64,000 bases of DNA from positions 310,001-374,000 of the forward strand of contig CANTFK010000785.1 in NCBI GenBank assembly GCA_947646735.1, written 5' to 3'. Position 1 is the first letter of the stretch. Each line of letters opens with the position of its first letter. The DNA comes from Peronospora farinosa. Its lineage: Eukaryota; Oomycota; Peronosporomycetes; Peronosporales; Peronosporaceae. Under the pieces are notes generated by a model, which was not told the origin of the DNA, did no database searches, and worked only from the letters and a program-made list of their open reading frames with translations. Position numbers and translations under genes: made by a program. Positions 5,192-25,961 of this stretch are shown piece after piece.

Positions 5192-5757
5192 CTGTAGGTG
5201 GCGGCATATATATATTTGGCTCCGTGCTTTTTGTAAGGCGATCGCTATCAACATTTGATCTACTTGTTCTCACGAATTAATAATTGCAGCCAGGGCATCG
5301 AGTATTTCGGCTTCGCTCTTTTCGCATATCTTGATCTTCAACGTCTAAGTCGATAATAATGCGGTTACCTTCCTAGACTTCCATTTAGACTACTTATCAG
5401 TACAAAGTGGAATAATGTGTAAAGAAGACCTTCATCTCTCGGGAGACTACATGGAATAGCATATATTCAGAATCCGGATTAGAGCTAATTCCCTACACGA
5501 CCATCCCGTAATTGGTCTCATTTCGTTTCAGCGATTGGCTGGTAGAATGTTTTCGGCCAATATGTACCGTCAGATTTCTGTAGCAAAGCTGCTGAAACCG
5601 TTCCTCTACTAGCGTAGACGACAAGCATTGGTGGCCGATCTAAATATCCATCCTTATCAAGGTACAATCTGGATCGTTCTCCTTATTAAGGGTATGAATA
5701 GGATCGCTTCCAGCTAAATCGCCCTCTATATAAAGGATGATCGCGATGGAAATGATG
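5192..5757. other. 566 bp spacer without recognisable gene
   Basis: No domain-bearing frame was found. A TATA-like CTATATAAAGG lies near 5735, but there is no gene downstream of it. Confidence 0.3.
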
Positions 5758-5762
5758 ATCCT

Positions 5763-6221
5763 AATAATGGGGCACTCTCCGACTATACTGATTACAGTAT
5801 TGTCTACTTTCACTGATTACAGTGAAAGCAGGTGCCTCAAAACCTCACGTACACGTGAGCAGAGGAGGCTTATCAACTAAACAAACGCTTAGTTGAGAGG
5901 GAAAAGAAAATCTGTATTTAATATAGTTAACTATCTAATAAAACTAATCTGTTATAACCTATGTTCACTATATTAAACTACAACTATGTATGTTGACGAC
6001 TTGCCCTCCACTCATTGCGCGCGTCCATCGGTCATTGTTCAGCGCGTTGGTTGATATGATGGACCATATCAGCCAATGAGAGGGCATCTCCAACTTCAAG
6101 GAGATCTAGAGACAATATTATAAGAAAAAATAATATTGTCAAAATATTATTAGTTATAATAATATTTTTATTGACACTTCATATAAGTATCAATATTATG
6201 TAACGGGCTCACCCCGTTACA
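5763..6221 (-). repeat. solo LTR, family X, left copy (inversion breakpoint)
   Basis: On the minus strand the LTR starts at 6221 with TGTAACGGGGTGAGCC and ends at 5763. It is nearly identical along its length to the plus-strand copy at 24944-25406; the terminal TG at 5763 is mutated. The five bases to the left (5758-5762) are ATCCT and the five to the right (6222-6226) are CTTGG, so the two sides do not match each other. Each instead matches, reverse-complemented, the flanks of the other X copy: AGGAT at 24939-24943 and CCAAG at 25407-25411. This is the signature of recombination between the two LTRs. Confidence 0.9.
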
Positions 6222-6226
6222 CTTGG

Positions 6227-7740
6227 GGCCACGATCCCATCTTTCGCGTAGTTGCTGATGAACTTGAAACTGATGTCCACGTGCTTAATGCTTGACGTGC
6301 TCTTCTCCGACTCGATCGGTTTGATAGCCGCTTGGTTGTCCATCCACATTGGCATCGGCTTGATCACGTTCAACTTCAATTCGTCGAACAGTGCCTTCAT
6401 CCCCAGTAGTTCGCGTCCGGCTTAAGAAGCCGCGATGAACTCTGCCTCCATGGTGCTCAGCGATACTCCAGACTGCTTCTTGCACGACCAAAAAACAAGA
6501 GAGCCATCCATGGTCAGAACACAACCAGATACAGACTTCCGGTCCGACTTATCCGCCGCAAAGTCCGCGTCGCTCCAGCTTTCAATACGCATGTCCTTGG
6601 GTGCCGATCCATCGCCTCCCAGATGTAGCTTCAGATCCTTTGACATCTTCAAGTAGCGCATGATCCTTTTGGCAGTCTTCCAATCCTTGGTCGTCGGCTT
6701 GTGTGTTTGTCTCGTTGCCTTGCGCAACGCAAAACAAATGTCTGGCCGCGTGCACCTTGCGATCCATAGTAGGCTTCCCACCATCGACTGGAAAGACTTC
6801 ACGCTTGGATCGTTTTTTGCACTTCTCGTTGACAGAAGTTCTTGAGCATCTTCTTCCTCGAGGTTGCATTCGTCGCCTATCGGAGTCCTCACTCCGTTTG
6901 CCGAGTCCGGTCCGAACTCCTTCAGCAGCAATTCGATCGTCACTTGTTGGTCCAGAATGTACCCCTTAGACTCGTCCAGTTTGATGCGAAGTCTCAAAAA
7001 CTTGTTCACCACGCCCAGATCCTTGGTTGACAGACACGCCATGTCCGTTAAGAAGTTGTCCACTGCGCTTGGCTTAGTCCCTGTGACGAGGAGATCGTCG
7101 ACGTAGACTCCGACTACCGTGCATGTATTGCCTTCGTACTTGAAGTACAGACACATGCCCGTCGTACATTGTCGAAACCAGCTCTGTTGCAGCTTCGAAT
7201 CCAGTAGGTTGCTTTAGAGTCTTCCAGCCTGCTTGAGTCCGCACAGCGATTTCTTTAACAGCAGCGCTAAGTCGTTCGTCGATCTTGATTTCAGACCCTT
7301 GAGATCTTCTCCGTCGAAGGTCATGCCTTTAGGCACCTTTATGTAAATGTCTAGGTGCTCTTCCTTTTCTGCTATGACGTAAGCATTCGGCACATCACCG
7401 TTTCGAGCTGGTACCTTCCAGCGTCTTGATAGCATCAGGATCATTTTCACCGTGCTCAAGTCCATCACCGCTGCGAAGGTGAGGTTGTAGTCAACTCCGA
7501 AAACTTGTTCGTTCCCGCAGACGACTAAACGAGCCTTATATCGCTCTATGTCCCCGTTCGCATCCGTCTTGGTCTTGTACACCCACTTTTTGTGGAGCAC
7601 GTGCGCATTCTTAAGCGGTGAAACGACCATCCAGACATCGTTCACCTTCAACGCGTCCAGTTATTCGGTCATGGCGATCTTTCACTCTTGATGATGCTTG
7701 CTCTTGATCGCTTCTTCGTATCTTGTGCTATAACAGCATT
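6227..7740 (-). pseudogene. C1 reverse transcriptase and RNase H remnant
   Basis: Minus-strand pieces at 7651-7214, 7156-6422 and 6400-6227 together cover the copia RT and RNase H. Visible motifs are HKKWVYKTKTDANGD and FGVDYNLTFAAVMDLSTVK in the palm, YVDDLLVTG (the YxDD catalytic box) near 7100, and DADFAADKS and STMEAEF in RNase H. The pieces are in different frames or separated by stops, so no functional enzyme can be made. The frame is cut at GIVAP by the X LTR; the missing RFVKS continuation sits at 25407. Confidence 0.88.
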
Positions 7741-8096
7741 GACGACGTCCCTGGATCCAGATGTATCTTCGCTTGAAACCTCTTAAGTTTTTCTTCTGTT
7801 CGTTGATCTTGTATCATGGCGCTACCTCGTCCATTCGGGCTTGCGATTCTTGTGATGCTTCACAGTACGCTGCTTGCCGCGACATCGTACCTGAGGGTTC
7901 GGTTGATCGACCATCGTCAACTACTCCTGACGGCAGAGTTCATCTTGATCCGATATATGGTGATTATCGGTTGTCAACGATTCAATATTCTGAATATATT
8001 GAGTCACTAAGACCACCTTGTTCTTGGGGATGAATGTCTTGTACCCCTTCGTCTCATCGCTTTTTCCGATGATGATGGCTGTCCTTCCACACTCTC

Positions 8097-8730
8097 CTAG
8101 CGACTTGTTTCTCGCGTTGACATAACCAGCGCAAACGAGCCCAAAGCCACGATGTCTGTTAACTTGGGGACCTTTTTCGTTAGGAGCTTCATCGGGGATA
8201 CTCCACCCAGGTTTGACTTGGTCCTGCTTCGATTTATGATGTACGTCGCGTACTCCGCTGCATCCCCCCAGAACGATAAAGGTAGGTCCGAGGCGAATAC
8301 CATGCTTCGTACCATATCCATAATGGTACGATGCATGAGTTCAGCCTTGCCGTTGCTTGCTTGGTTCCTGGCTTCGCTGATTTGACGCGAGACTCCCGTT
8401 GCCTTGAAAACACGTCCAGAGTCTTAAACTCCCCGCCTCCATCAGTGCATAGCACGTGAATTTTGAGGCTGAACTCGCGTTCAAATTGCACGAGGAAGTA
8501 CTTGAACTTGAGTGCAGCAGAGTCCTTGGTCTTGGCCAGGAACACGCGGCAGTAGTTGGACCGGTGATCGATGAAGTTGACTAGGTACTGGTTGCCCAGA
8601 CGATCTCGTGGGGTCATCGGTCCTTTCAGATAAATGCATATCACCCCACCGATGCCATCGATGGGTGAATTTATGCCAGTATCCACCTTCGATTGCGCTT
8701 GCTTGGTCTGCTTGACTTAAGCACACGCCA
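8097..8730 (-). pseudogene. C1 integrase remnant
   Basis: The minus strand carries copia integrase core sequence: YLKGPMTPRDRLGNQYLVNF with the following FIDHRSNYCRVFLA, CTDGGGEFKTLDVF, and MHRTIMDMVRSMVFASDLP. The equivalent C2 segment has DLKGPM, so the first aspartate of the D,D-35-E triad appears as Y here. Overlapping frames show at least one frameshift inside the domain. The element is inactive for this function. Confidence 0.85.
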
Positions 8731-8995
8731 AGAAATTCATGCGTCTTGTGTCAGTCAGCTTGATGCATGATGCGGGGTCCTTGGCCATCTTGATGATCGT
8801 ATCGAAACAAAGGCGGCCAAGCCGGCGATGGAAGTGCATCAAGGTACCACGCTGAACATCCGAATCGGATTCATATTCAGGTTAATTGATCGCTTCCACC
8901 ATAACTTCCTTTGACATACCCATGACTTTCGCGCGGTGACCTAACACCTTCACAACCAACACGTTGTTTGTGCGGTCAGCATCCATGATTGGTGC

Positions 8996-9315
8996 TGTAA
9001 CGGGCTAAGGACCCGTAACCGTCTTACACTAAATGGACGTTGAGGAAGCGCTCTTAATTAACTCGTAAATATAACTCTGTTTTTATTTTTGTTTTAGTTT
9101 TAATTCGCAGTAAGTGCGAATATGTTCCCTAGCTCATGGGAACCACTCAATATGGAAGTCAATTTATTATTGGCTAATTATTGGGTCTGGCACCCCAACA
9201 ATAAACCAATAATAAAATGACGCGCAGTAGCCGCTAATCGGATACTGCCCTATGCCTATTTATGTAATTATGTATCATCCCTATAGCTACTTATGTAATA
9301 GGTTGCCCCATTACA
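8996..9315 (-). repeat. solo LTR inside C1, with GGTGC duplication
   Basis: A 320-bp LTR with ends TGTAACGGGC and CCCCATTACA interrupts C1 between protease and integrase. It is flanked on both sides by GGTGC (8991-8995 and 9316-9320), a perfect five-base target-site duplication. Read on the minus strand it shares ATTACATAAGTAG and AGTGGTTCCCATGAG with the LTR at 116-443, so it belongs to the same superfamily. No internal sequence remains, so a solo LTR was left by recombination. Confidence 0.9.
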
Positions 9316-9990
9316 GGTGCGCCCTTCGACCCGAAAGTCAACACACGCCCCTCTCCTCGATATTCGAGTACGCATCCTTTCGCCTCAAACTTCCCATAAG
9401 ATATGATGTTTCGCTCGAGGTTTGCAGCTTTCTGAACGTCGAGGAGCCTTATCGTTTTCATGACCCCGAGCGCGACAATCTTGATGTCAACGCTCCCCTG
9501 CTTGGTCACTCGGAGCACACCTCCGTCGGAGGCTGCAGTCAAGAATTCACCCCGACATTCTTCGAGGGTTGATCTGTAGACTTAGGTCGTTGACAAAGTT
9601 TCTGCTGGGCCCACTGTTGAGGATTTAGTGGTCCTCATGGAGGTCACCATTGTTCCCAATCGCGAAGGTAAAGTCAGCACCTGCACCCTTCTTCCGTGCC
9701 TGCGGACACTTGGACCTTATGTGTCCAACTTCTCCGCATTTGTAGCACACGCGTTGGTCGCTTACTTACATGTTCCTTCTTGGACTTGACTTGACCCTCT
9801 CTTTCGGCTCCTTTCGAGCCTCGGCTGCGTTCACCACATCGCGATTCAAGTTCTTCACATCCGACTCAATCTCGACTTGTTGTGCGAACTGAGCCAACTC
9901 TTCGGCTTGTCGTAGGGATTTGTGTCGGTAATAGTCCAACCTCGACAACATAATCATCCTCATGTTGGGTCCGCATAGTTAAACAATGCC
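9316..9990 (-). pseudogene. C1 protease and CCHC zinc knuckle remnant
   Basis: A zinc knuckle of the CX2CX4HX4C form (CYKCGEVGHIRSKC) lies at about 9754-9713 on the minus strand. The protease active-site region follows near 9620 as ILNSGPSRNFVNDLSL, where C2 has ILDSGSSRHLVNDLSL. The catalytic aspartate is thus replaced by asparagine, and an in-frame stop sits just before the motif. The C-terminal protease strand region (9542-9316) is cut by the solo LTR at 8996-9315. Confidence 0.85.
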
Positions 9991-9991
9991 T

Positions 9992-10905
9992 TTAAGTACT
10001 AGGTTGTCCATACCTCCGCATGCATCCCCTCACGGCCGTCAGATACAGGTAATGGTCCATCCAACTTCTGTGTGCTGCCTTCGGTGCGGTGAAGAGTTTC
10101 ATGCTCTGTGCGGGTGAGATCTTCGTGCTGAAAGTTTGCAGCATCCTATTCAAGGATTGGTCCAGAGTCTGGTTTTCAACCCACCAAGGCTCGACCTGCC
10201 GACGGTAGCAAATCTGGGCCTTGCCTCCTAGGTGTTGGCCCAGCACGTCGACCTTGATGTCCTCGGGCCATGCAAATCCGCATGCACGTTCCGCGAACCC
10301 AACTTGCCTGACAAATTGTTTGACCCATCCGATGAACCCAAAACCAAGTCCCTGGTAGAGCTCCTTGCCGTAAAATGGTTAAAGTGCGAGTTTTCGCTCC
10401 CTCGCATCCGGCATCCCGTAGACTTGGGGTTCTTCGCCAACAAAAAACCTGCCCGGCATAACCACATCAGGGTATGCATTTGGAGGTACCTCTTGCCTGT
10501 GGCGAGCCGGTTCAGGTAATGCACCCATCCTGGCTCCCACGCCACCGTAGGCGCCACGATGTGTTCCGTCGTTCCCGAAGTCTTGACGCCGTCCACCAAG
10601 GTAGGCTGGAGACTTCTTCCGGGTAGGCTTCCTCCAAGGCTTGCAGGGTCATCCCCGCTCCTAGTACTGACCAGAAAAGAGACTCCGAAGGTCCCTTGAC
10701 GTTCTTGCCAGCATGCTCTTTCTGTGACGACTCCAAGCGATTTTAACGATCGCTGATTCCCCCGAGCATCCCCATCATCTAGTCCATCGCCCCTATTAGC
10801 GCTACCGACTTCTCTTTAATTTGGTCCTCGGCGTGCTTGTTAGAACCGTCAGTAACTTTGGTCGGTTTGGCTTGTGCAGACGCACCGGCCTCGCGCTTGA
10901 TCGTT
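9992..10905 (-). pseudogene. C1 gag remnant
   Basis: Minus-strand segments contain the copia capsid-like sequence seen intact in C2, such as LGQHLGGKAQICYRRQVEPW and ISPAQSMKLFTAPKAAHRSW, split between frames by indels. The expected start codon next to the primer-binding site reads ATT where C2 has ATG. The upstream 10590-10740 part shows VDGVKTSGTTEHIVAPTVAW and other low-identity gag sequence. Confidence 0.75.
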
Positions 10906-10917
10906 GGGCTAATAACC

Positions 10918-10984
10918 TGTAGAAAAGTTGCGATTTGGAACTTTGTTGCACTTGTGTGCGAAGAGGTAGAAGTAGAAGTGAATA
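10918..10984 (-). repeat. C1 5' LTR, inner fragment (67 bp)
   Basis: This piece ends at the C1 primer-binding site and matches the last part of the C1 3' LTR (25890-25956). With 19095-19451 it makes 424 bp, exactly the length of the 3' LTR. Insertion of G1 at GAATA (10980-10984, repeated at 19090-19094) split the LTR. Confidence 0.92.
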
Positions 10985-11579
10985 TGTAACAGGGTATCTA
11001 GTTACACGTAAACATTAAGTAACACACTTAATGTTTGGTCTAAAAGTATCCATGATTACTTTTGACCTATCACTTGGGTGCGATACACAAATGTGATCCA
11101 CCCTCGTGAATGTGATATCCATTTATGGATTCACATGAGAAGGGATGACGCTAGTTGAAGCTAGGCATCACGACGTTTCAGAAGGACGTCAGTTGCGATC
11201 TTAAATCTAGATTTAAGCTCATGCGACAGGATACGCTTCTAAAGAGTCGCGTATCCGATCTATATATATAGCCAATCAGTAGTTAAGTATATATTTAGTT
11301 ATAATTAATTAAATATAGCTCAGTCTTGAATTTGCTTAAACAAACACACCACGCACCAGAAGTTGAGAAACTTCTGCGTGACGTCAGTGCCTTCTTGTTA
11401 AGAAGTTCGTTGCACTCTCGCTTAAGCGAGAGGCAACTGGTGGTACGACTGCTTAAGCAGTCGACCAACCTCCCAACCGCCCTCGCACGCGAAGGTAAGA
11501 CGGTCTAACCGCTTCCTCGCTTGTGCTGAAGGTGTGTGCTAAGTAGTACGAGGCAACTTCGTAGAAGTGCCCGTCTACA
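10985..11579 (+). repeat. G1 5' LTR
   Basis: The LTR starts TGTAACAGGGTATCTAG and ends GCCCGTCTACA, followed by TTGGTAGCACTTG as the probable primer-binding region. A TATA-like CTATATATATAG next to a CCAAT box lies near 11260-11275 and probably serves as the element's promoter. Several short inverted repeats (for example TTAAATCTAGATTTAA near 11200) are present. I could not identify the primer tRNA. Confidence 0.9.
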
Positions 11580-11639
11580 CTTGGTAGCACTTGTTGGTCC
11601 TTCCCACGACCCGTCTCTCTGAGCGTGCGTGTGGTTAAG

Positions 11640-12760
11640 ATGGTCCTTAATATGGATTGGAGTGACTTCCCTCACCTCTCCCAACATCATAGGGAGTTGG
11701 CAGAGCATATGGTGCAGGGACTTGGCGAACAAGCCCTGGTCAATCTCTTGCATTGTCCTCCTGAGCAACATGTTGCTCAGTTGGAGCAATTTGAGTCATT
11801 TGTGCTTGGACAGCGTAGAAACGCGTCCGAGGTAAACAGCCAAGCCACCGCTGAGTCCATCACTAAGACTCAGGATGAGCTTAGACTTGAGAAGGCACGT
11901 AATGAGGCGCTCAACAGAAATGTTGAGACGCTCTCTGCCCGGCCTAATCAACCGAGGCCCATTCGGATGGACTCTCCGAAGTTCGATGGAACTAGCCCTC
12001 ACACGATTGTTCACTGGCTATTAGCAGTGGAGTAATGTGGAGTGGCGCAGCTCATCGAAGACGACACCAGAATGGTGTCGTATGCCATGTCCAACTTGCG
12101 TGGCAAAGCGTCAGAGTGGGCATACTCTGCGCTGATGGCAAATGCTGATGCATTTCCATCATGGGCGATGTTTAAGACAAAGATTCGCGCCATGTATCAG
12201 CCACCTAACAACGAAGTGTTGCTTATGGCGCGCTTCTTTGGAGCACGACAGGCGAATCGATCTCTGCAAGAGTTTGTGCAGGAGATGCGTTCGCTGTCGG
12301 CGTCCATCACTGGGTAACCGATACCAGAGCGTATCAAGGTAGCCACGTTCATGAATGGACTTAGGCACGGCCCATCGCGTCAGGCCCTTTTCAGAAAGGT
12401 GCCAGCAACGATGGAAGAGGCAATTGACATTGCCTTAGTTGAGGAGCAATCCTACAACAGCGCCTCGGCGACAGCCTATTACAGGCCGTCGACCGAGAAG
12501 TCTGATGCCACTTCCATGGAGTTAGGCAATGCAGATGTGATCTGCTACAAGTACGGCAAGATCGGCCATATGATGGCTCGCTGCTATGCCAAAGTAGCTG
12601 CTGGTGCTGAGGCAGCCAGCAAAAGGTCTCCCAACCCAAAGGGAGGTGCGAAAACCAGCGTGCACGACGCACGGGTTCAGCACCTGCCCAAGATGGGTCG
12701 GGAAATGCGGGAGCGCAGTAGGGGCGGGATGCCCTACTGTCGCGGACTCTGAAGCTACCC
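11640..12760 (+). pseudogene. G1 gag (interrupted)
   Basis: The frame begins MVLNMDWSDFPHLSQHH, then a coiled, charged region (about residues 60-100) precedes the Ty3-type capsid: FDGTSPHTIVHWLLAVE, LRGKASEWAYSALMANAD, IRAMYQPPNNEVLLMARFF and LQEFVQEMRSLSASITG. Stops at 12033 and 12315 split it into three frames. The zinc knuckle near 12540 reads CYKYGKIGHMMARC, with tyrosine in place of the second metal-binding cysteine. It would have formed the structural capsid of the particle. Confidence 0.85.
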
Positions 12761-12849
12761 CCTATGTTCAAAGTGATCGAACAAATGGGTAGCATAGTCC
12801 CTGAGGTACCGAAAGGTCGGACCTCAACCTTTTAGGTCTATAGCGCTCT

Positions 12850-15535
12850 AGTACGAGTCTATGACCAAGTAATGCCCCTTATAGTTGATTCGGGCGCATC
12901 ACAGAATGTCGCTAAACTTGCGGCTCTGAAAAAGAGTCCGGTGAATTATGAGTCGCTTTGCCAGGATGGCAAGCGAGAAGAGGCGATCGTTCGTCTAGCG
13001 AACAGCGCTCTCGTGAAATCGGAGGGAGCATTAGTGTATTCTCTTATATAAAGAAGCTCACAGTGCTAGGTATGGAGAGTCCGTATGACTTCATCCTAGG
13101 CATTCCTTGGTTGGCTAAACACCAACGATGGATTGACTGGCGTACACGCACAGTCGCTAGTTCTACGCAAGGCACCGGAAAGGATGAGATCTTGGGAGAG
13201 GCTTATGTGGCTGATGCTGTGTCCAACACAGTCGAGGGTGCGATGACGGTATGCCAATTGACACTAGGTTCTACCCAGCTCGTTGAGCCTGGAGTAATAA
13301 GAAGTGTTCTGACAAAAAGTCAGGTGACACATATTCCTACCCAGGTCGAAAAGACTGGTGTAGTGAATGGGGCGATGACAGATAGTCATGCGTCCAATAG
13401 TCCTGCACAGAGCCGAGAGCCTGTGGCAGTTGATGGTGGGCTGACAGAAAGTCAAGCGCCACAAGAACCGGCATAGAGCCATGAGCCTGGTCCGGTTGGA
13501 AGGAGTGCGTTGACTAATACAACAACGACACCTTCTTCCAGGTAAAAGGTCGTGGTGACTCAAAGAACGAGCACCAGACGTATTAAGACGATCAAGGGCA
13601 CGTCGAAATGAGTGACCCTTATCTCAGTCTCGGTCCAAGAGGACGGACCTACGAACGAGTTGTTCGAGGCCGTCGAAGACAAAATGCCGGAGGCATCCTC
13701 TGTTGAGGTGCTCCAACTTGTCTTGGTATCTGCCGAGGAGATAGTAAATCTCTCGGAGATGACGTGGAATATGTTCCTGTCCGAACTAATGGAAGGAAAG
13801 ATCCACGAGATAGTCGCACCAGTTCCAGAAGAGAACGTGGTGGACTGTTGCTCTTCATTCACAATGGATGAGAGCGTCTTGGAGACCGACAAGAAGAAAC
13901 GGTTCGATGCTCAAGGCTGGGGTTCCTTGAAGGACAGCCCGTTCTATGATGTTCTGTGGAAACACCGTGATGTGTTTCCAGCAGAAGTGTTGAGCCGCCT
14001 ACCGGCCGATAGGGGAATCAGGCACGAAATTGACCTGGATCCTGGCACCAAGTATTGTGTGACCAGGCAATGGCCGTTGCCGTAGGAACAAGTCGATTAC
14101 ATCGATGAGTTCTTCGACAAGCGAGCCAAGGCGGGACATGTACGTGAGAGCAAGTCGCCTCACTGCAGCCGACCTTCTGTGTGCGTAAAGCCACAAGTGG
14201 ATGGCGTGTGGTTCATGCTTATAATTAGCTGAACACGGCCACCATTACGGCCCAAACGCCGATCTCGCGGAAAGATGTTTTGTTGAATTCCATGGGAAAG
14301 TCAACTATCTTTTCCGCGTTGGATCGGAAGGATGGCTACTATCAAGTTCTCGTGGAGATACTGATGTAGCGAAAACGGCAGTAAGCACCCCAAGCGATAT
14401 GCTGTGGGAGTGGCTTGCGATGCCACAAGGGTTGAAAAATGCTCCGGCAACATTCAACCGAGTGGTGACTCAAGTGATGCGTCAGCACCGTGCCTACGCG
14501 CCCCATTACTTTGACGATGTATTCGTGCATAGTAGGGAGGAGGACGGTCTGAGCGCGATAGAGTCGCACAAGCGTCATTTAGACGCTGTGTTGCAGACTT
14601 TGGGTGACGCCTCATTATACGTGAACTTGCAAAAGTGCGTAATAGGGGTCCCCGAGATACCGTTACTGGGCTGCCTCATAGGTGCACATGGTGTACGAGC
14701 AGACCCAGAAAAGGTAAAGGCTGTAAAGGAATGGCCAGTCCCACGACATGTGAAGGATCTGCGCCAATTCCTTGGGATCGCTAATTACTTGCATAAGTAC
14801 AGCAAGAGTTATGCGGAGCAGACAAAGCCATTGTCTGACCTTTTAAAAAAGGACACAGAATGGACTTGGTCAAAGGAACAAGAAGATGCGTTCACTTCAG
14901 TGAAGCAATCTCTTGTAGAGGCACCGATCTTGGTATTGCCAGACGCGGATAAGCCTTTTAGCGTCGTCTGTGATGCAAGCAATTTTGCAATCGGCAGCGC
15001 GCTCATGCAGAAGGATGACAACGGGGTTGACCGTGTCATATCTTATCAATATCGGCTTTTAAAAGCCGCAGAGCTGAATTACCCTGTGCATGACAAGGAG
15101 CTACTTTCAATTAAGTATGCCCTTGTGAAGTTTCGAGTGCACCTCTTGGGCACCGAACCTTTTGTGGTTTATACGGATCACGCATCACTGCGGACCGCTA
15201 TAAATTCACCGCACCTCTCGCCGAGAATGGTGAGATGGCTAGCATTCTTCTCTGAATTTGATTTCAAAGTTGAATATAAGCCGGGTAAGTCGAATGTCTT
15301 GGCTGACGCATTATCGCGCAGACCAGACTTCGAGGCAAGACACCAGGATAGTGTGTCTCGTGCGAAAGCACAAGTTGAGCCGTCAACATTGGCAGCCATG
15401 AAGGCCTACCATGTGACGAGCTCAATGGCCTCCGATATCAAGGAGTGTTACGGTCAGGACGAACATTGTCGCCTGCTGTGGATGATTTTGGTGGACGAAA
15501 GGTTACCCTTCCGTCGCACCTCAAAGCGAAACTAA
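12850..15535 (+). pseudogene. G1 protease, reverse transcriptase and RNase H (interrupted pol)
   Basis: The protease active site LIVDSGASQN lies near 12880-12905, and the strand GIPWLAKHQRWIDW near 13100. A linker at 13200-13480 has imperfect repeats of about 25-30 residues (MTVCQLT, VLTKSQVTHIPTQ, MTDSHASNSPAQS, LTESQAPQEPA). RT follows from about 13920; LPADRGIRHEIDLDPGTK, WLAMPQGLKNAPATFNRV and YFDDVFVHS (catalytic box) are visible. RNase H contains FSVVCDASNFAIGSALM and VYTDHASLRTA near 15170. Stops at 14086 and 14231 and indels near 14350 break the frame. The 14399-15535 part is a continuous 378-codon stretch. Confidence 0.88.
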
Positions 15536-17515
15536 ATCGCTTTAGTTACAGTGATGGCCTGTTATGGCATCAACAGTCACCCTGTGATCCTTTGAGAATC
15601 TATGTCCCTCATGACACAGATCTCAAGCTGATGATACTTCACGAGTGCCATGATGCGCCATCTAGTGGGCATCTGGGCCGTGAAAAGACAATCTTACGGG
15701 TGTCAGAGGAATTTTGGTGGCCCCACCTATATCGGTGGGTGGCCAACTATATTCGCTCTTGCGAAGAGTGTCAGCGCATAAAGCCTGCACCTTCGAACAG
15801 TGCGCCACTGAAGCCACTGCCGATTCCAACTGAATGTTGGAAGTCGGTCAGTTTGGACTTCATGTTTGGCTTACCGCCTGACCATAAAGGCAGGACGGGG
15901 CTCGTCGTCTTTGTAGACAGACTGAGCAAGATGAGGCATTTGGCACCATGTAGCACCAAGATCTCAGGAAAAGAGGCTGCCCTCTTGTTCCTGGATCACG
16001 TGTATCGACTACACGGGATGCCCGAGTCCATAGTATCGGACCGGGATCCGCGTTTTACGTCGGGTTTTTGGCGACATGTGTTCGAGCTGCTGGGTAGCAA
16101 GCTCCACATGTCTACCACTGATCATCACCAGACCGATTGCCAAACAGAACGGGCCAATCGAGTCGTGGCGGATGTGTTTCGAACAGTAGAGACTCCTAAA
16201 GAATGGAGGAAGCAATTGACATTCGTGGAGTTCGCTATTAATAATAGTGTTCACGTCAGTACGGGTGAAACACCGTTTTACATTAACGGACTGCATCATC
16301 CTCGAGCGCCAGTCTCGTTTGTACGCAGCCCGAGTCTTAGTGGGGGAGGGCCCCTCACTTCGCTCGGTGCAAACGCCAAAAAGAGCCAAGGTTGCCCTAG
16401 TGACACTGCTAATTTAGCAGTGGTCACGTCACCTATAGGTGTCACAGAGGAGGCACGGCAAGAAATGTTAGCGCTCCTTGATGATGACACTATAGTGTTA
16501 TCAACAGCGTCGACCCATGCACGACCTCTTGGAGGCGTCATAGGCGAGCTGGATGCTAACAGCGTGAGCGAAGCTCAGCGCTTTGTGGATGAGCGATTAG
16601 CCACCACACGTAAAGTACGTGACGCGATGGCAAGCGCACAGGACAAACAAAAACAATATGAAGACCAGCATGGTCGCAAAAACAATGAACACGATAGTGT
16701 GGGGACAAAGTGCTATTAAGTACTGCTACCCTACCTAAACATGCAATTTCTGTACTACCTGGTGGTACTACTAAGCTATTGCCCCGATTCATTGGGCCCT
16801 TTACAGTGGTTGAAGAAGTTGGAGACCTAAATTATAGGCTCACTCTCCCACCGTATATGAAGACGCACCCCGTATTTTACGTGGGTCGTCTGAAACGATA
16901 TGTTGATCCAGAAAAGATTACATATCCACATCGGTCTAACGAGACCGATGGTGACGTCGACTGTGAGTCGAGTGTCGCGACCGATCAGGCGACGAGGAAG
17001 CCGAGAGGCTCCCCGTATACGACCGAGGCGATAGAGAACTCGGTGATCGAGGAGGATTCCGCGCTTGACGCGGGTCTCTCATCACCAGTCGCTCTAAGAT
17101 GTCCAAGCGGGGCTTCAGGCGGTCATACCCCTGACGATCCCTCGCCCTCACATCGCGCAGATCCGAGGTCAGTCGCGAGACTTGACTCTCGAGATCTGCC
17201 ACCTACCTGCCTCTTTAGCGCAGCAGACTCAGCCTGCGACTGAACAGCAGCAGGGTAGGCAGCCGCGATTAGGTGGGCGTAATCGCCAGTCCTATCGGGC
17301 GCCACCTGTGTTGGTGGACACGGAAGGGAATACGCGCTTTCTTGTTGGAAGGCTGTTGGCCCACCGGTTTTGAAGCGAAAGCTCCAAATCCTTGTCCAGT
17401 GGAAGGGTTACCTAACGAGCTTTGACTCGTGGGAGCCTGTGGACGCTTTGCGCGTTGAAGTGCCTGGGCTGGTGACTGCTTATGTGAAGCAACACCAGCT
17501 GTCTTCTTTCTGCTA
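15536..17515 (+). pseudogene. G1 integrase and chromodomain
   Basis: The H2C2 zinc-binding domain is seen as HECHDAPSSGHLGREK and CEECQR (15640-15780). The catalytic core includes SLDFMFGLPPDHKGRTGL, VSDRDPRFTSGFW and DCQTERANRVV, giving the D,D-35-E triad. The C-terminal LLPRFIGPFTVVEEVGD and HPVFYVGRLKRYVDP lie at 16780-16910. A chromodomain, LQILVQWKGYLTSFDSWEP, lies near 17380-17440. A stop at 16717 and frameshifts near 17370 interrupt the protein. Chromodomains of this clade direct integration toward modified histones; that role is known from the family, not shown here. Confidence 0.88.
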
Positions 17516-18388
17516 GGTCCGGAAGGGGTTAGCAGAAGAAGCGTGGCGAGAATTAATTGGGGGTCGCTTACCACCCAAGATTTCATGCGCACGCTTCATG
17601 GCGAAGCTGATTCGCTGCGACCGTTGTTTAATTGCATTTTCATGCAAGGTAACACGGCTCCGAAGTTCAGCTTCATAGTCGTCGGCTGTTTCGTTAGAAC
17701 GCAGCACGAATGGAATTGGGAAAGCACGACCAAGTGCTTTGCCCTGCTTTTTCCACAAAGGAAAGACGCTATAGAACTTATGAGCGTCTATAGTGGCACG
17801 CTGCAAAAGCGATGCGCTAGACCCATCTGAGTGCATCCACTCAGATGGAGGTGGCATTGGTGGCAAGCCACCACTCACGTAGCCGCCCTCGCGACGGCGG
17901 GCTAGTGAGGCCGAAGGTGTACTTGGTGGAGAGCTTTAAGCTCACACTCACCTGAGTCTGACTCTCCATTATGGATTGTCAAGACATCAGCCTGAGAAGT
18001 TACATCTGACTGAGTCGCGACTACTCCTTTCGAAGTAGCGCGCTCAGTCTTAGTCGCTGCGCTCGTAGGCGCAGACGACGGGGTTTTACCTTCGCTTGTA
18101 GGAAGCATAGATGCTTCCTCAAGGACGGGTGCCTCAAATGATGGGGACATATGTCCCATCAATGCACTATGCTCATCGCCACTTTTGGGTGATGGCAATG
18201 GCGTAGTCTCATTGTAGTCTACAATGAGAGATGGATCTTCATCCACATTATCGTGAGATGGAAGATTCACCTCAGTGCCTGAAGCACTTTGCGACGACTG
18301 CGATAAATCGCGGCGCGTGCGCTTAGTGCTGGACTACATGGGTGCCTTTGCAGGTGACCCATCAGCCTTACCACGTTTCGGTGGCATG
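17513..18388 (-). pseudogene. G1 antisense reading frame between chromodomain and 3' LTR
   Basis: A frame of about 290 codons runs opposite to pol. It begins at an ATG near 18388 (MPPKRGKADGSPAKAPM), passes one stop (TAG) at codon 18, continues through a Ser/Thr/Glu-rich stretch (VNLPSHDNVDEDPSLIVDYN, ATKTERATSKGVVATQSDV) and, after one frameshift near 17930, ends with a more ordered domain (IPFVLRSNETADDYEAELRS, RISFAMKRAHEILGGKRP). It sits between the chromodomain and the polypurine tract. G2 has a counterpart at 58095-58911 with a similar segment, VPFLLFAGKTEDEIDSAF. I do not recognise the family. It may be a capsid-targeting or regulatory accessory protein of the element, but that is speculation. 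Confidence 0.55.
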
Positions 18389-18479
18389 AGAGTTGAGTAG
18401 ACTAAAACGGCGCGTTTATAACGGCTCGCAAGTCTCTCTGTCTCCTAGGCGATGTTTTACAAAATGTAAAATTCGTTCT

Positions 18480-19089
18480 AAAACGGGGGATGGTGTAACA
18501 GGGCATCTAGTTACACGTAAACATTAAGTAACACACTTAATGTTTGGTCTAAAAGTATCCATGTTTACTTGTGGCCTGTCACTTGGGTGCGATACACAAA
18601 TGTGATCCACCCTCGTGAATGTGATATCCATTTATGGATTCACATGAGAAGGGATGACGCTAGTTGAAGCTAGGCATCACGACGTCTCAGAAGGACGTCA
18701 GTTGCGATCTTAAATCTAGATTTAAGATCATGCGACAGGATACGCTTCTATAGAGTCGCGTATCCGATCTATATATATATAGCCAATCAATAGTTAAGTA
18801 TATATTTAGTTATAATTAATTAAATATAGCTCAGTCTTGAATTTGCTTAAACATACGCACCACGCACGAGAAGCTGAAAAGCTTCTGCGTGACGTCAGTG
18901 CCTTCTTGTTAAGAAGTTCGTTGCACTCTCGCTTAAGCGAGAGGCAACTGGTGGTAAGACTGCTTAAGCAGTCGACCAACCTCCCAACCACCCTCGCACG
19001 CGAAGGTAAGACGGTCTAACCGCTTCCTCGCTTGTGCATAAGGTGTGTGCTCGTAGTTAGAGGCAACTTCGTAGAAGTGCCCGTCTACT
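18480..19089 (+). repeat. G1 polypurine tract and 3' LTR
   Basis: The purine run AAAACGGGGGATGG directly precedes TGTAACAGGGCATCTAG at 18494. The LTR runs to 19089 and parallels the 5' LTR over its full length (596 versus 595 bp), with a handful of substitutions. GAATA follows at 19090-19094 as the right copy of the target-site duplication. Confidence 0.92.
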
Positions 19090-19451
19090 GAATATATTAA
19101 AATGTTATCTTTGTTCGCTAACACTGCAATATAACATGCACTGCAACTTGACCATAACATGATTGCGTCCGTCTCTCCTCTTGTCTTGTGAGCCGTCGCC
19201 ATGTCGCCCAACAGGTCATGTCGCTGCCTCGTCCCGCCACCTGTTCGGCACCGTCTTATCAAAACACCTGTTACGACGTCTGTCACAGTCGTCGCCTTGT
19301 CTCACCATCTGTCACCGTCGTCGCCTCGCTTCACCATCTGTCAAGTCGTTTGTGGACTCGACCAATCAGTTGTCACTGTCACATGGTATAGCAGTTGAAC
19401 CTTCAACACAACAATGACTGACAAGACGTTTCTAAACAGGCATTTCTAGCA
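19090..19451 (-). repeat. C1 5' LTR, outer fragment
   Basis: Read on the minus strand from 19451, this sequence (TGCTAGAAATGCCTG...) matches the C1 3' LTR at 25533 and following. The five bases outside it, 19452-19456 (TGAAG), are the reverse complement of CTTCA at 25957-25961, immediately after the 3' LTR. These are the two copies of the C1 target-site duplication, now 6.5 kb apart and in opposite orientation because of the inversion. Confidence 0.92.
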
Positions 19452-19456
19452 TGAAG

Positions 19457-20384
19457 TCCAGGGTGCTTTTCAGCTGCTCGCCAGTCCTTTAACAAGTGGG
19501 CAGAACTTACAGCAGCCAATCTGGCCACGAGTGTACTAGTACCTCAGAGCTTGAACTTCTGTTTGTCCAGGTGCTCGCTAGTTCCTGAAGAGCTTTATTG
19601 TTTGTAGCACCAGGTGCTAGCTAGTGGTAATCGGCCTGCGCATTTTTGTCTTCCATTAGTGCCAAATGGCGCAAGCGACAGAAGACCTCAATCTGATACT
19701 GAAATATTAAAATATTAAGCCAGGACCTGCTGGAGTTGACCGTGCCAAGAATTCCCTTATGTGAAAAAACAGGGTGCCGCTAAATCAACGGAAAAAGTCG
19801 AAGCAGTTTGCGCCGACAAGCAAAAAGACTCAAGCCAACAGCAGAGAAAGTAGCGTTTAGGCACATTTAAGAACAAGAAGGGCATGTTAGGAATAGGCAT
19901 TGCTGCAAAAACGATTAAAGTAACGGCTGACGACTTCGAGTTGGTAGGGATATTGTTTCAGCGATTGATCAAAACGGAACGATGGCTGGCTGGTTGATAG
20001 CAAGATTAGATAGGGCATTATAATAGCGAGACAAATAGCACAAAAGACAACAACAATATCTTTTATTACACCGCTACCGACTACCTCTCATGTGCTATGC
20101 TATTGTAGCCGTCGTAAAGGGCTACGGTTACAATAGCATAGCACTTGCAAATAGCGTCACGTCACAAAAAAATATGCAAATGTATGTACGGAAACTTGCG
20201 GTGTGCTATGATATGTTGCTATCAATAAGAGAACATTGACCCCGTGAATGTGAATATACCTTACATACAGCCTAACTGTACACAAAATCAGTACTGTATA
20301 AGCAATCCCGCTTGTGGTATTTCTACCAATCAACTGAGCCCAATCACTTTTCATCATCGTTGCTGTTGGCCACTTGAAGTGAGC
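19457..20384. other. 928 bp upstream of the sedoheptulokinase-like gene
   Basis: No gene was recognised. It contains a perfect 16-bp inverted repeat (see 20092-20144). The reading frame of the gene downstream extends to 20244, but only from a GTG; the first in-frame ATG is at 20385. Confidence 0.4.
20092..20144. repeat. 16-bp perfect hairpin upstream of the kinase gene
   Basis: GTGCTATGCTATTGTA at 20092-20107 is repeated as its exact reverse complement at 20129-20144, separated by 21 bases that themselves hold GCC/GGC complementarity. It lies about 240 bp before the kinase start codon. It may be a regulatory cruciform or the remains of a small inverted-repeat transposon; nothing further marks it. 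Confidence 0.6.
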
Positions 20385-22998
20385 ATGGAGGCGGCATCTA
20401 CGGCAACGCGTAGTCCAAGTATTTCTACATCTCCGGCGTCAATCGCAAGTGATCAAGCGAGCGTAAACCTTAATCTATCTACTGGTACTTCGATTGTACC
20501 TTCAGAAGCAGCAGGAGATCCTATTGAAGCTAGCGTAGACTCGACTGGACGTCGCATCCAGCAGCGCTCGAATTACTCGGTCAAGAAAAAGCGCGAACTC
20601 ATCGCGTTAGCGCAAGTCGCAGGTGTGCGGGAGGTCTGCAGGATGGAGGGCGTGCCACGTCGCACGCTGCGGCACTGGCTGGACGACGCCGAGAAGATTA
20701 ACAGCTTTGAAGGTCCAGATTCGCGGAAGTCCATTGGACGCTCAGGACGTCGCGAGATTTTACCATTTGGACGGCAATTGACTGAGTTTTTAGAGAATGG
20801 AAGACGACAAGGACGCGAGATGACGTCATCGCATATGATTGGATACATTAGACAGAATCATAGTCAGTGGCTGGAAGGCTATTTGGCAGACAAGAAGAGC
20901 GCCGAGAGTGGACAAGCTGCACTCACAAGACTTTGCCAGAGATTTGTCGAGAGGCACGGTTTTACACATATAGGTGTCGGCGCGATGCGGCCCCAAGCGA
21001 TGGCGGCTACAATAGCAGTGGAAAGTACGAACACTTCTGCAGTGCATTCGAATGGGACTGTGACAAGCTCTATTGAAAGGACATCCCACCCCACTAAAGA
21101 TGCGGTGCACAACGCTAACGATAATTCAAACGAGTATGACGTGGAAGATGATACTCCGTTACTTTTTGGACTGGATATTGGTACTACCGCCATCAAGTGC
21201 GTTCTAGTAAAGGTAGATGGCGGTCAAGTTGCTGCTGTGGCCAACGTATCTCTCAGTGATGTGATTGTACCGACTAGACCAGGAGAAGAAGCGGTGAAGA
21301 ATAAAATTGGCGTACTTAATGTGAACCAGGTGTTGTTGGCAGTGCAACGAGCCGCAAAAATGCTGCCGGAGATGGCAAGGCGGCGAGTCACGTCTGTTGG
21401 TATCTGCGGTCAAATGCACGGAATCGTATGGTGGTGCAGTCGTGCCGTACACGAGGTAGCAGAACGCTTATTGTCAGTGGGAGAAAATGGGATGCTTGAA
21501 GAGGATGGCTCTTCTTATGAACCTGTGTGGAGCGAGCTTATTACGTGGCAAGACCAGCGCTGTACACCTTCGTTTTTGGATAGCTGTCGGGAAAAGATCG
21601 CTCGGATTAAAGCTATGGGCGATTTTGCTTCAATGCCCAGCCGGATAGCTGCTGGCTACGGACTAGCCTCATTCGCCCATACATTAGAATACTCTCCGCG
21701 CGCATTAGTAGGCATGGACGCTTGCGGTACGATCCAGGATCTAGTGGCTTTTATATTGTGTGGTCACACGCTTCCAAGCGAAACCTTCATGGACACCACT
21801 GATGCTCACAGTTGGGGCGGTCTCAACTTGCAAACGCAGACTTGGGACCCTAGAGTGCTGCGTGCGCTACGAATTCCCTCATCAATGCTGCCAGCTGTAA
21901 AGAAGCCGGGCACTTGCATCGGTCACAGCTCTCCAGGTTTCTCTGGGTTCGGGTTGCCCGACAAGATACCAGTGTATGTGCCGATGGGTGACCATCCGTG
22001 CTCCGTCTATGCCGCTCTGGCGCAGCGCCAGTCATCTCCTACTAGTGACTCCAACATAACGTGTACGTTGCTGTTTATTGATTAAGGCGGCTACTTCGTG
22101 ACTGACACTGTGCTGCACACCTGTGCGTGATTGCTTGTGGTTGTAATAGTGGTGAATATCGGCACGTCAGCTCAAATGGCTATTGTACTGTCTAGTGCAG
22201 ACGTTGCAAAATTGTCTTCTTGCTCCGAAGATGCCTCGAATCCTATCGATAATATGGGCAACACAAGTTTTGAAGTACGGCCATTCCTTATCAAAGATCG
22301 CTTCTTAGGCGTGGCAGCCTCACTATCCGGGTCCGTCTCGTTTGCTGCTACCATTCCATTCCTCTATCTGCTGCTCTTTTTAATCATCTAGTTTGCATGT
22401 GCAGTGGCAACATATTTGCCTGGCTAGTGCATCAATGGCAACAATGGGCAGAAGAAATGGGAGTTGCTCCAACTCGTAGCGAGAGTAATGAAGAGCAAGT
22501 GGTGCAAAGCGAAGATGAGGTTTACGCCCGACTAATTGCGATGGGGCTGCAGCGCCAGGATACCGATCTGACATTCGTGCCGACGCTTAACGGTGAGCGC
22601 GTGGATCCTAGTGTCACTGGTAGCATTTCAAACTTGCGGATGAATAACTGGAGTATGGGCGACATCAGTGCCGCGCTGTCACGTGGTCTTATAGACAATC
22701 TCTTTGCCATGATCCCCAAAGAGTTGCAGCCGCTGGTGCTCGTGCAACCGTACGTTTAACCCTGCGACTTTTCTCCACAACTATCACGTGCTGTCGTATT
22801 GTTGACCGGTTGTATTTTGCAAACAGGATAATCGGTACGGGCAACGCCCTTGTGCGCAACGAACTGTTGCAACGATTTCTACTGCGGTGTTTGACTCAGC
22901 CCTCGCAGCTGCAGCTGCAGATGGTCGCAGATGCTGCCGTGGGCGCGGCGCTCACCCCATCGCTTCTATCAGGGTCCCCAGTCGTGCTTGATGTGTAG
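20385..22998 (+). CDS. sedoheptulokinase-like FGGY kinase with N-terminal CENP-B/psq-type DNA-binding domain
   Basis: Four exons (20385-22062, 22150-22330, 22405-22749, 22827-22998) total 2376 nt and give 791 residues. The introns (87, 74 and 77 nt) all begin GT and end AG, and the summed length is divisible by three. Residues 260-791 form a two-lobed sugar kinase: the phosphate loop LDIGTTAIKCVLVK, GICGQMHGIVWW, TWQDQR (conserved W-x-D-x-R), DAHSWGGL, GDHPCSVYA and NIGTSAQMA. The GDxxCSVYA and HSWG signatures point to sedoheptulokinase, which phosphorylates sedoheptulose to feed the pentose-phosphate pathway. Residues 61-200 instead resemble the helix-turn-helix of Pogo/CENP-B transposases (NYSVKKKRELIALAQVAG, PRRTLRHWL, RLCQRFVERHGF). 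Human SHPK is about 480 residues and lacks this. The start is the first in-frame ATG. The gene lies in the inverted block. Confidence 0.82.
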
Positions 22999-23589
22999 CA
23001 CGGTCCCGAAAAATATACCTTGATGAAGCAGGGTCAACAGTGAGCATCATCCCATGCAATGCTCGCGATAAGTACCTGACATACAGGCTTATGATCCAGC
23101 GCCAGCTTGCCGCTTGCGAATGAGCAGCTGCGGGTGTCATGGAGAACACGGTCTACTCTTAGAATTACAACGTACTTCGTTACACTGGCTAATTGTCATT
23201 TTTAGTCGTCCGTATTGACAGAAACTAGTCGATATAGAGAAATGTAAGTGTCGTGCTGCAAACAGTTTGCTTCCAGTCGTACTCTTGTTTGCTTTTGGTA
23301 CTTTGTCACTTCAATCTGTATCGACAACTTTGCAGATATGTTTATCTAACAATCAATACACTCACTTTGGTTTATACCTTTCAATTATCGAGCTTTTCAA
23401 CAGGTTAACAGCTGCAGGACACTCAAACAAAGCCGCACTCCCATCGACATCATCATGTCCGACAAGAAAGCTGAAGTCATTCTGGATAGTGACAACTGCT
23501 GCTAGAAACTGCATTATGTCGACTACAGAGCTTCTTTAATGGGGTAGGCATTGTTGTCAGTACCGTCAGATGCTAATGTAATTATTGTC

Positions 23590-23690
23590 TTAGCGGATGA
23601 TATTCAACAATATTATCTTACGAAATAATATTGTCGTTGTATCTCGTTCAAATTGGAGATGCCCTGCTTACTAGCCGATGATAGGCATAA
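23590..23690 (+). repeat. relic of LTR family X
   Basis: CAACAATATTATCTTACG, AATAATATTGTCGTTG and TTGGAGATGCCCT line up in order with the X LTR at 24944-25406 (TGACAATATTACCTTTTC, TAATATTGTCCC, TTGGAGATGCCCT). Only about 100 bp survive. Confidence 0.55.
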
Positions 23691-23729
23691 TTTGCATTTT
23701 GAAAGCAAAAAGTAGATTTTATGATCTGC

Positions 23730-23797
23730 AGTCTAGGTTTATTTAGATTTATATCAGGTTTGAACAAAACCTAAATAAAATCTGAAAGAAACCTAGA
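23730..23797. repeat. imperfect inverted repeat, arms about 30 bp
   Basis: TCTAGGTTTATTTAGATTT on the left is mirrored by AAATCTGAAAGAAACCTAGA on the right with a few mismatches around a short AT-rich loop. No gene is adjacent; it may be a remnant of a small inverted-repeat transposon. Confidence 0.45.
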
Positions 23798-24943
23798 TTG
23801 CGCACGTTGACTTATTTTTTGGCTATCTTCACAATTGATGACAGGGAAGACAAAAGGATTAATCTCGGGTGGCCCATCTATCGATCAAACAAATGGAAGA
23901 TCGTAAACAGTATGATCTTATTATCGCTGACCTCGTAAGTCGATGAGAAGATTCTCTCTGACGCATATTAATTCCAATTGGCCCCTGCGAGATGTTTAGT
24001 GAAAACAAGATGTATGCAAGCGAGATTCTGTCGAATTCTTGTAAATCGAAACAATTGTCTTACAGTGCTTGTAAGTATCATACTTCTGATTTTAAGGGCT
24101 CTACAACATCCGTTAAGACCGACTAGAAATCACTCAAGGCACGGCCTCTCTTATAATAATTAGTGTTGTTGTTTCCTTCCGGAATGAGAACCTTCCTTCA
24201 AGATGGTAACAATTGAGCTGTTTTCTTCGTTTGTGGTCATATCGGGTTAGAAGTATTTTAAAGTTGGCGTTAGGTAGCACTGTAAATTGAACCAATAATC
24301 TTGCGATAATTTTTTTGGCTAGATCTAATGTTCTGTCACTTAATCAAAACCTACTTTAGGCGCAATTTAAAAAAATTATATTCTATAACCTACCCAAACC
24401 TAAAACATTTAAACCTATGCCTGCCACCCCTGGATATAGGCCATGATATTTACCATCATCAGATTACAGTTTAGGACTCTAAGTGACAGATCTCGTGGAT
24501 TTTCGCTTTCCGTAACTCATTATGACGTTTGCCACTAAAGTGCAAATTGCGAAGTGACCTAACATTAATTACTAAACCTCAATCTGCAAGGTGAACATAT
24601 TAGCTTTGAAGTGATTCAATCTGCACACGGTTCAAATCAAACCGCGATTACAGAAGACGGACCGTTCAGGTAAATATTTAACATCGACCAGCACTTAAAC
24701 ATGGTAGACCGTCCACTGGCATGCCCCGGCCATCCAGATCATTATGGCGTCTGGAATAAATCCTCATACAGCTTTTAGGAATCAATTGCGAAATTTTTAA
24801 TGAAGCGACTGAAATAATTATAAACTTCCTAGTAACGACTGCATTAATCACAGTGTAGGAATTTATAGAACGATCCCAAATTTTACGGATGTGACTCCAA
24901 GAATGTAAATGCATCGGCTTGTACTGTTGAAGATGACAAGGAT

Positions 24944-25406
24944 TGTAACGGGGTGAGCCCGTTACATAATATTGACACTTATATAAAGTGTCAATAAAAA
25001 AATTATTATATTTAATAATATTTTGACAATATTACCTTTTCTTATAATATTGTCCCTAGATCTCCTTGAAGTTGGAGATGCCCTCTCATTGGTTGATATG
25101 GGCCATCATATCAACCAACGCGCTGACCAATGACCGATGGACGCGCGCAATGAGTGGAGGGCAAGTCGTCAACATACATAGTTGTAGTTTAATATAGTGA
25201 ACATAGGTTATAACAGATTAGTTTTATTAGATAGTTAACTATATTAAATACAGATTTTCTTTTCCCTCTCAACTAAGCGTTTGTTTAGTTGATAAGCTTC
25301 CTCTGCTCACGTGTACGTGAGGTTTTGAGGCACCTGCTTTCACTGTAATCAGAAAAAAAAAGTAGACTATACTGTAATCAGTATAGTCGGAGGGTGCCCC
25401 ATTACA
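24944..25406 (+). repeat. solo LTR, family X, right copy (inversion breakpoint)
   Basis: The 463-bp LTR starts TGTAACGGGGTGAGCC and ends GGTGCCCCATTACA. Its left flank is AGGAT (24939-24943) and its right flank CCAAG (25407-25411). The right flank continues the C1 pol frame broken at 6226, and the left flank matches the outer side of the other X copy. Both LTRs are probably chimeric products of one crossover. Confidence 0.93.
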
Positions 25407-25532
25407 CCAAGGTTTGTCAAGTCCCAAGCCATGATAGCAGACATTTTGACGAAGTCATTGTCGGCGCCAAGAATGAAAGAACTACGTGAAATGTTCGATT
25501 TGAAGACCACTTAGGCTGACACCGAGGAGGAG
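25407..25532 (+). pseudogene. C1 pol C-terminal end, separated from the rest by the inversion
   Basis: Starting within the CCAAG duplication, the frame reads RFVKSQAMIADILTKSLSAP and then RMKELREMFDLKTT before a stop at 25512. This corresponds to RFIKSEDMMADILTKALPAP at the end of C2 pol. The partner sequence ending GIVAP lies on the opposite strand at 6227. A purine run, GAGGAGGAG, ends at 25532 just before the LTR. Confidence 0.92.
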
Positions 25533-25956
25533 TGTTAGAAATGCCTGTTTAGAAACGTCTTGTCAGTCATTGTTGTGTTGCAGGTTCAACTGCTATACCA
25601 TGTGACAGTGACACCTGATTGGTCGAGTCCACAAACGACTTGACAGATGGTGAAGCGAGGCGACGACGGTGACAGATGGTGAGACAAGGCGACGACTGTG
25701 ACAGACGTCGTAACAGGTGTTTTGATAAGACGGTGCCGAACAGGTGGCGGGACGAGGCAGCGACATGACCTGTTGGGCGACATGGCGACGGCTCACAAGA
25801 CAAGAGGAGAGACGGACGCAATCATGTTATGGTCAAGCTGCAGTGCATGTTATATTGCAGTGTTAGCGAACAAAGATGACATTTTAATACATTCACTTCT
25901 ACTTCTACCTCTTCGCACACAAGTGCAACAAAGTTCCAAATCGCAACTTTCCTACA
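25533..25956 (+). repeat. C1 3' LTR (424 bp)
   Basis: The LTR begins TGTTAGAAATGCCTG and ends TTTCCTACA, followed by CTTCA (25957-25961). It matches the two fragments of the 5' LTR at 19095-19451 and 10918-10984, whose lengths add to the same 424 bp. Tandem GACAGATGGTGA-type motifs occur near 25640-25690. Confidence 0.92.
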
Positions 25957-25961
25957 CTTCA

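Follow-up and report, generated by a model that had tools for sequence, protein, structure and literature searches.

Two solo LTRs with exchanged target-site duplications point to an 18.7-kb inversion by LTR recombination in Peronospora farinosa

How do two solo long terminal repeats (LTRs) come to be flanked by short duplications that match only after the segment between them has been turned? The question is raised by a 64,000-base stretch of the Peronospora farinosa genome (bases 310001–374000 of contig C210, 575,196 bases long, in an assembly of 46,851,245 bases and 274 contigs), hereafter the window, in which two LTRs of one retrotransposon family, here called X, enclose most of a Copia element (C1) and one host gene. 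We posit that the enclosed segment, 6222–24943, was very probably inverted by one homologous crossover between oppositely oriented family X LTR copies, likely within a 170-bp tract of complete identity between them. This agrees with the original prediction, an earlier reading of the same letters, which had attributed the arrangement to homologous recombination between inverted LTRs; support for that claim comes from uninterrupted relatives of C1, from the 170-bp tract with its two shared alleles, and from the finding of no other reciprocal pair among the solo LTRs surveyed.

The two LTRs, at 5763–6221 and 24944–25406, match each other over 461 bp at 95.7% identity in opposite orientation (BLAST), and both borders of each run into non-X sequence with no interior attached, so that both count as solo. 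The left copy is flanked by ATCCT and CTTGG and the right copy by AGGAT and CCAAG. Turning 6222–24943 in silico restores three duplications at once: ATCCT/ATCCT and CCAAG/CCAAG around the LTRs, and CTTCA/CTTCA around C1, which on the plus strand now reads TGAAG at 19452–19456 and CTTCA at 25957–25961 and pairs only once the segment is turned. The inverted LTR pair, the recovery of both reciprocal five-base duplications by re-inversion and the co-orientation of the C1 duplications had all been put forward in the original prediction, and each was reproduced here. Apart from at most two terminal bases, each LTR is complete, and the flank exchange is exact at both sides; the right LTR has the ends TG...CA, and the outer two bases of the left LTR are AA, not TG. 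The features on which the argument rests are listed below, insertion A being the X copy with the ATCCT duplication and insertion B that with the CCAAG duplication.

5758..5762, unstranded: ATCCT, outer flank of the left LTR and one of the two halves of insertion A's duplication (sequence)
5763..6221, minus strand: left solo LTR of Gypsy family X, with outer end AA instead of TG
5868..6037, unstranded: 170-bp tract identical to 25128–25297, the likely site of crossover and conversion (LTR alignment)
6222..24943, unstranded: putatively inverted segment of 18.7 kb (LTR match, C1 relatives, exchanged flanks)
6222..6226, unstranded: CTTGG, inner flank of the left LTR and probably the displaced half of insertion B's CCAAG duplication (C1 relatives and turning of the flanks)
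6222..10917, minus strand: larger part of the Copia C1 interior, with broken frames (RVT_2 match at 6422–7213)
10918..19451, minus strand: one C1 LTR, in pieces 10918–10984 and 19090–19451, split by a nested Gypsy element, N (sequence match)
19452..19456, unstranded: TGAAG, target duplication of C1 carried within the inverted segment (sequence)
24939..24943, unstranded: AGGAT, inner flank of the right LTR and probably the displaced half of insertion A's ATCCT duplication (sequence)
24944..25406, plus strand: right solo LTR of family X, with TG...CA ends (strand assigned as for the left LTR)
25128..25297, unstranded: counterpart of the 170-bp identical tract (LTR alignment)
25407..25532, plus strand: remaining end of the C1 interior, beginning with CCAAG (sequence match, C1 relatives)
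25533..25961, plus strand: second C1 LTR (25533–25956) and target duplication CTTCA (sequence match)

At the CCAAG breakpoint the former order can be read from C1 itself, a Copia element (RVT_2) whose last piece (25407–25532) and main interior (6222–10917) now lie on opposite strands. In all eight fetched relatives (L064–L071) and in the second copy within the window, C2 (9/9 in total), the sequences from 6222 onward and from 25407 onward map next to each other, with the flanks sharing exactly 5 bp, which is the CCAAG duplication. The nine copies represent 9 of the 21 matches that reach the junction besides the query's own, and 40 of 58 candidates were scored. As these copies are contiguous with a 5-bp overlap, the unturned order is, on this comparison, ancestral at the C1 breakpoint, X having apparently inserted there with a 5-bp duplication; one half of that duplication now lies 18.7 kb from the other. 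The expectation that re-inversion would rejoin C1 (6227 with 25407) was thus borne out in every C1 copy examined. The accompanying claim of three independent sets of evidence holds in so far as the sets agree, but their full independence does not, since the CCAAG duplication and the C1 join describe the same breakpoint.

Because the CCAAG side is already fixed by the C1 relatives, only the match of ATCCT with AGGAT is left for an estimate of chance, and taken alone it would arise about once in 1000 (ATCCT occurs 52 times on the plus strand of the 64,000-base window). The left flank has no match outside itself at 5642–5762, its relation to a repeat ending at 5641; for the right flank (24400–24943) there are two partial matches at 68–70% identity. 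No second full copy of either outer flank exists in the assembly, so that an alternative haplotype of the locus is absent from it. Immediately to the left of the ATCCT site region, 5238–5641 is a remnant of another abundant repeat that ends at 5641, with 71–74% identity to its copies among the 40 matches listed. Locus L056 contains a 66-bp match (77%) to 24779–24844, but its strand does not fit the unturned order, and it was discounted as a chance similarity.

The LTRs themselves hold a further record. They differ at 16 of 457 aligned sites (3.5%), and every difference falls outside the 170-bp tract: 5/103 on one side, 0/170 in the tract and 11/184 on the other side (16/287 outside, or 5.6%). 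Random placement of 16–19 differences gives a run of at least 170 bp in 0.25–0.8% of cases. The tract columns are variable in the family, with 45% of all differences among 2,700 other LTR pairs falling there; five of these pairs show no difference in the tract columns, and none of the five has at least 14 differences outside. Two alleles, an extra T at 5911 and C for A at 5966, are shared by the two LTRs but absent from all 72 remaining copies in the alignment (74 aligned, the duplicate locus L130 being left out and matches shorter than ~440 bp not aligned). Both lie within the tract, and the LTR has no such alleles elsewhere. Genome-wide, the first allele was found at two places, both of them these LTRs, and the second at three (these two and one on contig C263), its usual form being found at 257. 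The tract and its rare alleles fit what would be expected of a crossover with gene conversion; if this reading is true, divergence since the event would be bounded at ~1.8% (0/170, rule of three), as against 5.6% outside the tract.

Judged by its predicted domains, X is a Gypsy-type LTR retrotransposon family. Copies of its LTR occur as direct pairs ~7.6 kb apart, and one interior (locus L132), taken piecewise, yielded matches to RVT_1, RNase H and Integrase_H2C2 (integrase zinc-binding). The X end pattern was found at 369 places in the assembly (up to one mismatch) and the two borders between LTR and interior at 519 and 577 places (up to two and three mismatches, respectively), X being mostly present as full-length copies. 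Strand was set by the coding strand of the one full copy, L132, together with polypurine-like and primer-site-like neighbours of other copies; by the L132 coding strand, the left LTR belongs to an X on the minus strand and the right LTR to one on the plus strand. The naming of LTR ends (5'LTR/3'LTR) in the census script is reversed relative to this coding strand, which leaves the counts unaffected. Elsewhere, X LTR pairs in the same direction lie 15–18 kb apart with matching outer 5-bp flanks at C13:332465/347607 (GTTAC), C183:117759/135647 (ATAAC) and C42:223722/239671 (AGACT), and each pair probably belongs to one X copy into which other elements have inserted.

A census of solo X LTRs served as a control for the exchanged flanks. 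It covered 90 loci, made up of the 30 best matches and 60 hand-picked ones that favoured places with no same-strand neighbour at 5–9 kb; it is enriched for solos and its counts are not a rate. Four of the 90 loci (L100, L102, L103 and L111) yielded no row. There were 27 rows without either interior border, 12 of which were removed by hand for a missing or altered LTR end (L008, L027, L085, L095, L098 twice, L104, L110, L114, L119, L121 and L129), leaving 15 complete solo X LTRs, this pair included; L001, with its first two bases changed, would fail the same rule and was kept as the study object. Perfect 5-bp duplications flank eight of the 13 other complete solos, while two have one mismatch, two have two, and one (L120) has four. 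When the solos were paired so that one or both members had mismatched flanks (77 pairs), reciprocity was seen in the present pair alone; the next closest would need five changes in ten bases.

From these observations we infer a crossover accompanied by conversion, and the following order of steps. C1 would have inserted with its CTTCA duplication, and one X copy would have inserted in the end of the C1 interior with a CCAAG duplication, another inserting ~19 kb away in opposite orientation with an ATCCT duplication. Each X copy would have lost its interior by recombination between its LTRs, whether ahead of the inversion or following it. Pairing of the two LTRs, with homogenisation of some or all of their sequence, would have led to a crossover, an event that would swap one flank per insertion and turn everything between them, including one host gene.

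Several observations weigh against such a crossover. The evidence base is the assembled sequence of one genome. No relative in this assembly spans the ATCCT site and no empty site was found there, and the terminal TG is gone from the left LTR. The tract was picked after being seen, and among 324 LTR pairs with comparable substitution counts, 12 likewise contain 170 bp or more of uninterrupted identity. The second shared allele has its third place on C263, and 10 of the 2,700 other pairs share at least two pair-private alleles; several of these ten pair the LTRs of a single element or join copies that are nearly identical (1% divergent), and some are divergent. Sister insertion from one source copy could also explain the shared alleles, though not the difference-free tract. 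Mosaic structure of the copies is not visible (nearest relatives, 120-column windows): outside the tract, most of the sites that differ carry a form private to one copy, which leaves too few informative sites to tell the parents apart.

Other routes to the same arrangement have to be weighed alongside the crossover between LTRs. If the assembled sequence alone is considered, an assembly chimera, with a wrong join through the two 460-bp repeats and a true chromosome that is unturned, would yield the same flank pattern, and to that extent the original prediction was right that such a chimera would look the same. A false join leaves unexplained, however, the two rare alleles shared within a single identical tract. 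Furthermore, the contig runs to 575,196 bases, the window contains zero N, contig C25 carries a series of three X LTRs spaced ~7.7 kb apart, which suggests that repeats far above 460 bp were apparently resolved, presumably by long reads, and 16 differences over 457 LTR sites are separable by long reads; we consider a chimera very unlikely. Doubtful, if conceivable, is a crossover between full-length X elements, at any LTR or in the interior, with the solo state reached later by recombination between each element's own LTRs. The same exchanged outer flanks would be expected, and X is mostly full-length, as the 519 and 577 border places attest; this route needs two additional deletions after the inversion, however, and the 170-bp tract of the remaining LTRs would be explained more simply by direct exchange between LTRs.

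Breakage followed by end joining, the LTRs lying at the ends by chance or having been homogenised later, would have a parallel in a second likely inversion of ~8 kb on the same contig that seems to have been joined without repeats and to have one breakpoint inside an X interior. End joining would not swap flanks, however, and the LTRs here are complete to within two bases with an exact 5-bp exchange on both sides, which makes this explanation highly improbable. Aberrant transposition (hybrid element insertion) in place of homologous recombination can also swap duplications, a possibility discussed for DNA transposons in the available part of PMC2775673, and is hardly credible for the present pair. 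It predicts identical copies at the two ends, whereas 16 of 457 sites differ here. X, moreover, is by its domains (reverse transcriptase, integrase zinc-binding) a Gypsy family rather than a cut-and-paste element, and Gypsy elements do not transpose by cut and paste.

The second likely inversion, ~8 kb in length, lies ~170 kb to the left of the window (L149/L150, C210:126300–140300). Its LTRs (134302–134755 and 139337–139791) are in opposite orientation and 98.3% identical, have CCCAG as the outer flank on both, carry two pair-private alleles and look like those of one X element. One part of the X interior runs forward from 130250 and another backward from 138214; the remaining part was not found. 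As there is no X to the left of 130250 within the fetched stretch, this inversion seems not to be LTR-mediated.

Two further features lie within the segment bounded by the solo LTRs.

10985..19089, plus strand: nested Gypsy element N (GAATA duplication at 10980–10984 and 19090–19094; RVT_1, RNase H and integrase matches)
20385..22998, plus strand: host gene, predicted carbohydrate kinase of the FGGY family with a helix-turn-helix-like stretch at its N-terminus (alignment to a 795-residue P. effusa protein)

By alignment the host gene is full-length, covering residues 1–795 of a 795-residue Peronospora effusa protein in three blocks (20385–22346, 22397–22756 and 22828–22995) at 91–94% identity; a 566-residue query is 96% identical over 99% of its length to a P. 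effusa protein and 88% identical to a P. destructor protein. The corresponding P. effusa gene is KXD40_005987. FGGY_N scores above the Pfam cut-off and FGGY_C below it, and the relatives are named sedoheptulokinase or carbohydrate kinase. The N-terminus of the kinase contains a helix-turn-helix-like stretch (HTH_23, below the Pfam cut-off). Since the same N-terminal sequence is present in the 795-residue P. effusa relative and most top Peronosporaceae matches are of similar length, a fusion of helix-turn-helix and kinase looks conserved. The right LTR is now 1.9 kb away from the gene and the left LTR 14.2 kb, distances that would have been swapped before if the segment was turned. The claim that a functional host gene had been moved and flipped stands as far as the presence of a full-length gene inside the segment (795/795 residues aligned); no effect on the gene is implied by the present evidence.

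The LTRs of N differ by 4.0%, compared with 1.5–1.7% for the two pieces of the LTR of its host C1. The notion that N is older than C1, which LTR divergence would give, was rejected because 12 of the 23 substitutions affect positions at which other copies show either form, so that LTR divergence is no clock for N; mixed templates or later conversion, rather than age, are the likely source. In plants, nested elements with LTRs more diverged than those of their hosts have been reported in the part of PMC7251063 available.

The mechanism posited here is already known and its signature is textbook; the present case is a well-documented oomycete example, of moderate interest both as method and as an oomycete case. 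It concerns an inversion that can be reconstructed from a single genome, the old order at one breakpoint via paralogous C1 copies and the crossover likely to within 170 bp. More tentatively, it is possible that scattered 460-bp solo LTRs diverged by 3–6% repeatedly flip single genes in seemingly collinear downy-mildew chromosomes, each event leaving a readable record. If true, the exchanged 5-bp flanks and conversion tract in a single assembly would be enough to tell where the crossover fell, how the segment was originally ordered and how old the event can be at most. A genome-wide scan for flank-exchanged LTR pairs could gauge the change in gene order driven by retrotransposons in downy mildews.

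In Peronospora effusa, isolates are nearly collinear with two large inversions between isolates, Gypsy and Copia elements have recently expanded, and LTR-related recombination was suggested to underlie effector copy number, according to the available part of PMC11540230. That part traces no inversion to exchanged LTR duplications, and the words "solo" and "ectopic" are absent from its main text. A literature search combining Peronospora, inversion and solo LTR, limited to the library and terms used, found no paper. In plants and human, LTRs swap short tracts with non-allelic copies, and recombination can leave solo LTRs without matching duplications (PMC7251063 and PMC4921805, in the parts available). 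The tract exchange is the same as that proposed here, whereas in the present case the tract is tied to a defined inversion, a word that is absent from the main text of PMC7251063.

Also among the closest known systems is inversion 2z3 of Drosophila buzzatii, attributed in the available part of PMC2775673 to ectopic recombination between copies of Galileo and marked by opposite orientation, exchanged duplications and chimeric copies. Galileo is a DNA transposon with 7-bp duplications, whereas the repeats here are solo Gypsy LTRs with 5-bp duplications; for 2z3 the uninverted chromosomes were sequenced and the copies shown to be mosaic, whereas here the ancestral order is read from the C1 side only and no mosaic is visible (PMC2775673, same part). 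As in 2z3, copies in opposite orientation stand at both ends and each exchanged target duplication is the reverse complement of its partner, and in both systems the crossover is narrowed to a short stretch, 141 bp in 2z3 (PMC2775673, same part) and, for the likely crossover at the locus described here, 170 bp.

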